Both the position numbers and the translations under genes were made by a program. From Candidatus Puniceispirillum sp. (GTDB lineage: Bacteria; Electryoneota; RPQS01; DYHQ01), in NCBI GenBank assembly GCA_020724065.1, contig DYHQ01000004.1:1-47751 (forward strand): DNA of 47,751 nt, read 5' to 3'. A model generated the notes under the pieces. It was not told the origin of the DNA and ran no database searches. It saw nothing but the letters and a program-made list of their open reading frames with translations. This document shows, one piece after another, positions 5,312 to 42,529 of the stretch (the stretch's first letter is position 1; every line of letters starts with the position of its first letter).

Positions 5312-5361
5312 CCCCCCACCGTCCCCGGTGGGGGGGCATGCGGGACGCGGGAGCGTCCCGC
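5312..5361 (-). repeat. Composite double-hairpin repeat, copy 2 (inverted relative to copy 1)
   Basis: Reverse complement GCGGGACGCTCCCGCGTCCCGCATGCCCCCCCACCGGGGACGGTGGGGGG aligns to 232-278 with few differences. Confidence 0.8.
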
Positions 5362-39993: not shown

Positions 39994-40998
39994 CTATTGG
40001 ACTCGGTTTAGGATATAGATTCCGTCCTCATCGTCGAAATAGATTCGACTTCCGTCCGAGGTAGGCTGGGGGCGCGTTCCGGTCGCCGTCAATTGCTGCG
40101 CCCCTCCTCCCGTTACAGGAATTGTCCAGATTCCCGCGGCTGAAGCTCCCGATAGCTTTACGAAAGCCGCACAGTTCTCCTGCAAGAAAGCCGCAGGCAT
40201 AGATGCCCCTATGGCAAGCAAGTGCGGTGAATGAGGCGAGGTCACCGAGACCGCATAGAGATCAAGAGCCCCTCCCTCCGTGAACTCGTAGACTATTTGC
40301 TGGGAATCCCACGCCCACGAGAAACTACCGCTAAAGAAGGCGAGAAGTTCTTCAGTGAGGCTATCCATTGTCAGACTATGCAGCGACCACCCCTGAGAAC
40401 CTACTTGTGAAATTTGAAACGCAATCCGCCGCCCGTCAGGAGATACCTCGGGTGCCCGACCCTGCTCGGCAATACGAATCCGCGTCGAAGGGCTGCGACT
40501 GTTTCGAAAGATTCCTTCGTTGTCTGTTCCATCTTCAGGGCCCGCGCAATAGAGGACATTTGAATCGTCAGGTTCCCATGTTGGCGCCGAACCTCTGTCC
40601 CACAGTTGCAGTAGCTCCAAAGTCTCAACATCAATCATCCAAATTCCCGCGTTCTCTGTGCCGACCTCGCCTGGTGCGGAGAAAGCCAGATATTTCGCGT
40701 CGCCTGACCACACATAGTCCCACGAATGAGGTGGCGAGCCAGCTGCAAGCTGAATGACCGTATCCGCCCTCATAAGATAGATTCCCGCCGTGTGATTCGG
40801 TGTCCCCTCCGCGGCAAATGCCAGTAGGTCTCCGTCCGGTGATGGAACGGGTCGCTGTCCGAAGTCAACAACGCGAGCGAGCTCCCAGGATTTCGTAGCG
40901 GGAATCTCTTCGTCCTCCGAGCATCCAGAGAAAGAAACCGCTACGCAGAAAAAAAGGAGTAGCGCCCAGCTTGCTGGGCTATGAAATCGCATAGACAT
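39994..40998 (-). CDS. Putative lipoprotein with TolB-like beta-propeller
   Basis: MSMRFHSPASWALLLFFCVAVSFSGCSEDEE signal peptide with lipobox-like FSGC; propeller motifs PVPSPDGDLLAFAAEG, APEVSPDGRRIAFQIS, PQPTSDGSRIYFDDEDGIYIL; ORF-track start (41019, TTG) judged too far upstream. Confidence 0.8.
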   Translation of the reverse strand: MSMRFHSPASWALLLFFCVAVSFSGCSEDEEIPATKSWELARVVDFGQRPVPSPDGDLLAFAAEGTPNHTAGIYLMRADTVIQLAAGSPPHSWDYVWSGDAKYLAFSAPGEVGTENAGIWMIDVETLELLQLWDRGSAPTWEPDDSNVLYCAGPEDGTDNEGIFRNSRSPSTRIRIAEQGRAPEVSPDGRRIAFQISQVGSQGWSLHSLTMDSLTEELLAFFSGSFSWAWDSQQIVYEFTEGGALDLYAVSVTSPHSPHLLAIGASMPAAFLQENCAAFVKLSGASAAGIWTIPVTGGGAQQLTATGTRPQPTSDGSRIYFDDEDGIYILNRVQ

Positions 40999-41031
40999 TA
41001 CAGCATTCCGGCCCAGCAAGCTGGGCGCTAC
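40959..41031. repeat. Perfect 21-bp inverted repeat GTAGCGCCCAGCTTGCTGGGC ... GCCCAGCAAGCTGGGCGCTAC, each arm itself a hairpin
   Basis: Arms at 40959-40979 and 41011-41031 are exact reverse complements; 31-nt spacer. Confidence 0.9.
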
Positions 41032-41068
41032 GATGATTCAAGAAGCAAATTCTTCCGCTGCCTTACTT

Positions 41069-42529
41069 TCATGATGCCTTATCGGGTACTCCAATTTGAA
41101 TGTCTCGGAATCGAGCCGGAGAAGCTCCGTGCGACATCGCAGCAACCTGTCCCGGCTGTCCCTTGCCGCAGTTGACAACTCCCCAGAGCGTCCACCATGC
41201 AGGCCCAGCAATGGCATCGCACGCCCCCCAGAACTCAGGCGTCATACTCTGATAAGTCGGATTCTTCACCAAATCCTGCAACTTCCCTCCATGAATCTCG
41301 CGCCCAAGCTCGCAGGTGAATTGGAAGTTCAGTCGCTTCTGATCAATAGACCAAGACTTATTTGTCTCCATGTAGATTCCATCGTCAACTTCGGCAATCA
41401 TATCATTCAAGTTGCGGTCGCCGGGTTCGAGAGAAAGATTTCCGTTGCGAATAATGGGAATATGCGACCAATCTTCCGCACGACAATTTCCCGTCGAACG
41501 AGGCCTGCCCAAAAGCCCGGCTATCTCTCGAGAAGTTTGATACCCAACAAAAATCCCGTTCTTCACAATATGCCAGCGCTGAGCTCGGACGCCGTCATCA
41601 TCGAAGCCGAAGGTCGCCAAGCCTCCGGGGATCGTGCTGTCGCAATAGAGATTCACCATGTCGGATCCGTAGCGAAAACTCCCCTCTTTCTCCAAAGTGG
41701 CAAAGCTCGTTCCCGCGAAATTGGCCTCCATTCCCAAGACTCGATCAAGTTCCGTGGCGTGCCCGACCGATTCGTGAATTTGCAACGCAAGCTGCGAACC
41801 GCCGAGAATCAGCGTCGTCCTTTTTCGAGGACAGGATTTGGCCGAAAGCAGAGCCATTGCCTCTTCGCGAACGCGCTCGGCCTCACGCAGAAGGTGCAAG
41901 CCTCGCACAAGTTCATAGCCCAATGCCATATATTGCCCGCCAAAGGAATTCGGATAGCTGCGGATTTGCACCTCGGACCCATCCACAGCAGTTGCCGAGT
42001 AACCTGCGCCGGAAAGAAGCAATCTCTGGTCAGCGAGAGTTCCCTCGCTCGTTGCCAGAATCCGATGCTCGCGGTCGAAGCGCATGCCGCTCTCGGCGAC
42101 TCTTATCCGAGGCGACTTCCGGAGAACCTCGTCCACGGCAAACAGCAGCTCCAATTTCTCACTCACAGGAACATTGAAAGGATCCTCAACGGAGGGAGCA
42201 AGCCAAGTCTCTTGGGCGGGAGACTCCGGAGACAAAACGACATCCCTCTCCTTGGCCGTGCTGCTGGCGAGCGCGATCTCCACCGCCAGAGCTGTCACGC
42301 GTCTCACTTCGGATTCCTCGACGCGTGAAGAAGCGGCAAATCCCCAAGCGCCTCGGCAGATGACACGCACGCCGAAGCCTTCGCTTGTCGAAGAGTCCAT
42401 GTTGGCGATATTGCCGTTGCGGATGATAATGTTCTCGCGCTCTTTGGTGATGAGGCGAATATCCGCGTAGGTTGCTCCAAGTCTTTTTGCCTCACTTAGC
42501 GCGATGGATGTCAGGGAATTGGATTTCAT
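41069..42529 (-). CDS. tldD: TldD family metallopeptidase
   Basis: 486 aa; QIHESVGHATELDRVLGMEANFAGTSF with HExxxH motif. Confidence 0.93.
   Translation of the reverse strand: MKSNSLTSIALSEAKRLGATYADIRLITKERENIIIRNGNIANMDSSTSEGFGVRVICRGAWGFAASSRVEESEVRRVTALAVEIALASSTAKERDVVLSPESPAQETWLAPSVEDPFNVPVSEKLELLFAVDEVLRKSPRIRVAESGMRFDREHRILATSEGTLADQRLLLSGAGYSATAVDGSEVQIRSYPNSFGGQYMALGYELVRGLHLLREAERVREEAMALLSAKSCPRKRTTLILGGSQLALQIHESVGHATELDRVLGMEANFAGTSFATLEKEGSFRYGSDMVNLYCDSTIPGGLATFGFDDDGVRAQRWHIVKNGIFVGYQTSREIAGLLGRPRSTGNCRAEDWSHIPIIRNGNLSLEPGDRNLNDMIAEVDDGIYMETNKSWSIDQKRLNFQFTCELGREIHGGKLQDLVKNPTYQSMTPEFWGACDAIAGPAWWTLWGVVNCGKGQPGQVAAMSHGASPARFRDIQIGVPDKAS

Follow-up and report, generated by a model that had tools for sequence, protein, structure and literature searches.

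The palindromic repeat pair at positions 40959–41031 was very probably produced by the insertion of a REPIN into a tldD–lipoprotein operon; the insertion would have cut through the signal peptide of the lipoprotein, so that the start codon and roughly half of the signal peptide would now be encoded by the element. The window (i.e. the whole stretch of DNA that was analyzed, 47,751 nucleotides) belongs to a metagenome-assembled genome (MAG) of 2.33 Mb that is 88.7% complete. On the minus strand, tldD comes first, followed by the element and then by the lipoprotein gene. The features are as follows.

39994–40998, minus strand: lipoprotein gene, 334 codons from the ATG at 40998 (MSMRFHSPASWALLLFFCVAVSFSGC...), a PD40/TolB-like propeller
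40959–40979, plus strand: gene-side REP arm, GTAGCGCCCAGCTTGCTGGGC (from the exact sequence, its 74 genome matches, and translation)
40980–41010, unstranded: inter-arm spacer, with homology to those of the other short copies
41011–41031, minus strand: tldD-side REP arm, an exact inverted copy of the first (from the sequence)
41032–41058, unstranded: outer tail on the tldD side, consensus GACGACTCAACAAGCATACTTTTTCGC, common to other short copies
41028–41072, minus strand: stub ORF, MKVRQRKNLLLESS followed by a stop (direct reading)
41069–42529, minus strand: tldD-like gene, directly upstream in the operon (NCBIfam TldD model and synteny with the nearest genome, G001)

An earlier note on this DNA had described two exact, inverted 21-bp arms, and this was borne out: the arms are 100% complementary and are separated by 31 nt. 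The further claim that each arm is self-complementary holds for the 16-nt core, GCCCAGC-TT-GCTGGGC, and fails for the GTAG-C head. A separate hairpin (7-bp stem, TT loop) is present in each arm beside an unpaired GTAG and one C, an arrangement within the structure of GTAG-type REPs, i.e. an unpaired GTAG with a palindrome whose stem is 5–13 bp and whose loop is 2–20 nt. Because the arms form an inverted repeat, the pair folds as a 21-bp stem in RNA or DNA, and the RNA fold (z = -5.1) only restates the repeat. The element reaches about 25 bp past the outer arm, and its total length, including the outer tail, is about 98–101 bp. This 27-nt tail matched its best sibling at 18 of 27 positions (shuffle p about 0.001); in the same test, no tail matching those of siblings was found next to the gene (p about 0.69). 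A search for the element's boundaries identified no duplicated target site.

That the palindrome is dispersed and not unique, as the earlier note supposed, was confirmed by a whole-genome search with the arm. The MAG contains 74 matches at three or fewer mismatches (46 of them exact), compared to 0 for a reversed control pattern, and none of the window shuffles reached the observed count of GTAGNGCCCAGC matches; a chance palindrome was ruled out on these grounds. Most copies are head-to-head pairs with GTAG on the outside, and about ten are single arms; single arms lacking the shared outer tails also occur. The pairs fall into two length classes, the short ones being mostly 72–74 bp (one is 66 bp) and the long ones about 104–140 bp. 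Between copies, the arms are 94–98% identical and the spacers 64–69%. Spacer identity within the short class averaged 0.69, versus 0.49 for shuffled spacers, and the short-class spacers are clearly related to that of the window (TATGAAATCGC...), which has an identity of 0.56–0.75 to single short copies. The repeated unit is accordingly an inverted REP doublet with conserved ends and a variable spacer, as in REPINs. Its location is mainly intergenic: besides the window, 33 of 38 surveyed loci had no overlap with a gene called by a simple codon-score gene caller, and in two of the five that did (L038 and L045), the REP touches the gene end only. The TAG of the REP's GTAG serves as the stop codon of the adjoining gene clearly in L045 and likely in L038.

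In three short copies (L049, L041, and L042) and three long ones (L005, L007, and L026), the spacer has the opposite orientation to the outer tails when set against the remaining copies, as if the DNA enclosed by the inverted arms could flip. In two further copies, both arms share one private mutation (GTAGCGTCC in L046, contig G000:C21; GTAGCGCCG in L050, contig G000:C133), which suggests inter-arm correction or spread as a unit.

The gene-side arm, read on the minus strand, falls within the codons for the signal peptide of the lipoprotein, as (S)PASWAL(L); the S-P-A-S-W-A-L-L of the earlier note is recovered in full when the flanking bases complete the codons of the first S and the last L. 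Its placement of the second arm in the leader was likewise correct, as the tldD stop (TGA, 41071–41069) precedes the outer arm. The lipoprotein frame is shut upstream by a TGA at 41040–41038, and the lipobox Cys codon is at 40923–40921. Between that TGA and the Cys codon, the sole ATG, GTG, or TTG starts are TTG 41019, which is held by the tldD-side arm, and ATG 40998 and ATG 40992, both located in the spacer. All three are inside the element, and the spacer ATGs arose through small changes from the family consensus. With no stop in the lipoprotein frame and with these ATGs on offer, the element keeps the gene open on this strand, and translation can start within it. The N-terminal sequence (MSMRFHSPASWALLLFFCVAVSFSGC) has the pattern of a lipoprotein signal peptide, with a predicted n-region, h-region, and lipobox Cys. 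Should this signal peptide be in use, the element must encode the first half of it, MSMRFHSPASWAL, because every start available to the frame is located there.

The following course of events would account for the arrangement. The palindrome pair is best read as a REPIN, a head-to-head dimer of GTAG-type REPs and a non-autonomous miniature mobile element of the kind linked to RAYT (Y1, HUH) transposases, and it would have entered the lipoprotein gene within its opening codons, presumably by transposition. Before the insertion, the signal peptide would have been of the type MKVRQ(L)LFFCVAVSFSGC. The insertion would have severed it, leaving the old ATG to read MKVRQRKNLLLESS until halted by the TAG of the REP. 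The lipoprotein gene would have stayed open, owing to the stop-free frame of the element, its two in-frame ATGs, and one TTG. Translation would now begin within the element, with the arm contributing residues of a new signal peptide, MSMRFHSPASWAL-LLFFCVAVSFSGC, of which roughly half would be element and half original sequence. At the sequence level, there is support for an inserted, dispersed palindrome that now encodes part of the signal peptide; the new signal peptide may work, in which case the element would have been exapted. The hairpins may also regulate translation initiation, as the earlier note proposed, and translation is probably lowered by the strong stem that surrounds the start.

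The stub ORF looks like the severed original start and signal peptide of the lipoprotein. Its ATG at 41072 overlaps the tldD stop (ATGA), and it ends at the TAG (41030–41028) carried by the GTAG head of the tldD-side arm. When the flanks were joined with the outer boundary of the element placed at 41056 or 41059, both of which are close to the end of the tail homology, MKVRQLLFFCVAVSFSGC or MKVRLLFFCVAVSFSGC, respectively, was restored. This agrees with the stub being the old start, but chance alone would put a third of all boundaries in frame, and for this reason the identity of the old start is something that we infer. A TTG start comparable to that of G001 (TTTGCATCTTGAGT) was considered for the window at TTTGCTTCTTGAAT and was rejected; because the bases concerned belong to the outer tail that sibling copies also have, the ATG at the tldD stop was favored.

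The mature part of the lipoprotein is conserved and could be aligned with homologues throughout the order. The nearest genome, G001, is of a different genus and is the family's sole other genome. Its lipoprotein orthologue (56% identity) also follows tldD, and its junction has no palindrome, with about 20 bp from the tldD stop to a TTG start. (The tldD-like gene of the window matched the NCBIfam TldD model at 1e-39, below the curated cut-off.) The earlier note had named two outcomes that would refute it, a repeat unique in the genome or orthologues that keep the same N-terminus without the palindrome. Neither occurred: the repeat is dispersed, and the G001 orthologue, which lacks the palindrome, has a different N-terminus. 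A divergent N-terminus alone proves little, as signal peptides vary freely. Further, with the nearest genome being of another genus and the orthologues 56% identical, the absence of the element from G001 may conceivably reflect its loss there.

The exact arm is abundant (49 matches) in G006, a genome from another family of the same order; it is sparse in a few further genomes of the order, and no match was found in the 48 genomes searched outside of it. A scan of a large genome collection, which may leave out the window's own records and close relatives, returned the exact arm in three other bacterial MAGs only. Among relatives, the stem variants are compensated (both sides change together), while GTAGCG and TT are fixed. 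On contig C69 of G006, tandem arrays of the arm are located on both flanks of a gene for a 164-aa RAYT with MPNHFH and REYIANNP motifs, and these arrays pair the exact arm with a stem variant, GTAGCGCCCGACTTGTCGGGC. This protein matched the NCBIfam model "REP-associated tyrosine transposase" (NF047646) at 3.6e-19 and 69.1 bits, below the curated cut-off of 80. The RAYT association known for GTAG-type REPs is thus seen in G006, and by their position the arrays link the arm family to REPIN mobilization. No cognate RAYT was found beside the arm in the window's own MAG (88.7% complete). None of its four Y1_Tnp genes, nor its one broken RAYT, adjoins the arm, and so the cognate enzyme would have been lost, be missing from the assembly, or have been replaced by another RAYT.

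Other repeats were noted in the same MAG. The four Y1_Tnp genes (L031–L034) adjoin repeats having no GTAG tag, e.g. GCGGGCGGATCAGGAGATCCGCCTCGGCGAG, and these lie on both sides of at least some of the genes. An inverted pair belonging to a second GTAG REP family (GTAGGGGCATGGCGCGCCATGCCC) is present in the window at 166–191 and 440–465; repeats similar to it flank and interrupt the broken RAYT gene (L150, G000:C157). Further inverted repeats at 232–278 and 5313–5361 of the window, 5 kb apart and 93–96% complementary, feature GCGGGACGCTCCCGCGTCCCGC beside a CCCACCG..CGGTGGG hairpin.

The main rival to a functional, element-encoded start is that the insertion broke the gene, in which case the lipoprotein is poorly translated or dead and the start within the element is fortuitous. 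The original-looking start is indeed cut off after 14 codons, and the ATGs are looped out by a highly stable stem and have no obvious Shine-Dalgarno sequence. Against this, the 334-codon ORF is intact and aligns over its length with the orthologues (a result compatible with recent damage to the gene as well as with its use), and the new N-terminus is laid out like a lipoprotein signal peptide. We therefore regard a damaged gene as unlikely, while giving it more weight than any other alternative.

Two other explanations concern the nature of the element. Spread mainly through recombination between repeats, or as a MITE of another transposase, in place of a RAYT-moved REPIN, would fit the outer tails that copies share beyond the GTAG heads, the flipped spacers of several copies, and the lack of a cognate RAYT in the window's MAG; the shared tails and flipped spacers do imply that recombination acts on the element. 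The GTAG head, the hairpin, the head-to-head dimers, and the RAYT-flanking arrays of G006, however, all fit a RAYT/REPIN origin, and single arms occur without shared tails, making this alternative improbable. Far less credible still is a conserved regulatory hairpin of the operon (an attenuator or RNA switch) whose overlap with the start is incidental. Its strong RNA fold and its location in a leader between two genes would suit such a role, but the dispersal of the palindrome already contradicts it, with dozens of copies adjoining unrelated genes; the hairpin is also absent from the G001 operon. No Rfam family came near its gathering score, and a known regulatory RNA family was rejected on that basis.

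With an inserted REPIN retained as the best explanation of the window copy, it was considered whether the family is a recurrent source of start codons and parts of signal peptides for exported proteins. On the GCCCAGCAAGCTGGGCGCTAC strand of the arm, none of the three frames contains a stop, and the consensus of the short class gives IMLHYRKRFHSPASWAL, in which a start codon precedes a basic stretch. In L048 (G000:C106:22831–22851), a single arm is part of the sequence coding for the N-terminus (MPSKLGAAMVAM...) of a secreted protein of outer-membrane type, whose G001 orthologue (L203, 74% identity) is without the arm; it is possible that the start of the L048 gene is downstream of the arm. 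Such a general role is judged improbable.

The biology of RAYTs and REPINs is itself established, and GTAG REPs, REPINs, their linkage to RAYTs, stops supplied by GTAG, and REPs inside proteins have all been published (PMC3733652, PMC3116915). What the window copy adds is a signal peptide in which the insertion can be read with unusual clarity: a short mobile hairpin seems to have taken the place of a gene's start codon and of part of its export signal, with what looks like the severed old start beside it. No direct precedent for REP elements in signal peptides was found in the open-access literature. A REPIN is a REP doublet that forms a hairpin (Bertels and Rainey 2011, PMC3116915), having conserved ends and a drifting spacer (PMC3116915). 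The window family likewise consists of REP pairs inverted about a spacer, in dispersed copies whose ends are conserved, and REP arrays beside a RAYT gene, described for REPINs, were seen here in the relative G006; unlike REPINs (PMC3116915), it has shared outer tails, two spacer length classes, and no cognate RAYT seen in its own MAG.

The window family also resembles the GTAG REP super-family (PMC3733652), by features as opposed to sequence comparison with the named classes. Common to both are the unpaired GTAG tag, the 7-bp stem, and the 2-nt loop; head-to-head dimers 20–100 bp apart, in a family of 20–100 units that are mostly intergenic; the use of the TAG of the tag as a stop; and the placement of some units inside ORFs, including at N-termini. 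Most N-terminal REPs were suspected of reflecting misannotated starts (Di Nocera and colleagues 2013, PMC3733652). The window copy differs from most of those (PMC3733652), as its start cannot lie downstream of the element. It offers a concrete way to test if REPs at N-termini represent genuine protein sequence or the annotation errors that the literature mostly assumes. Rickettsia palindromic elements (RPEs) are, like the window element, palindromic repeats that become parts of proteins, and N-termini decorated with RPE-1 were reported to be expressed in vivo (PMC3733652). The window element is of another sequence family than the RPEs, and it takes over the start, with a portion of the signal peptide, in a single lipoprotein while being otherwise intergenic.
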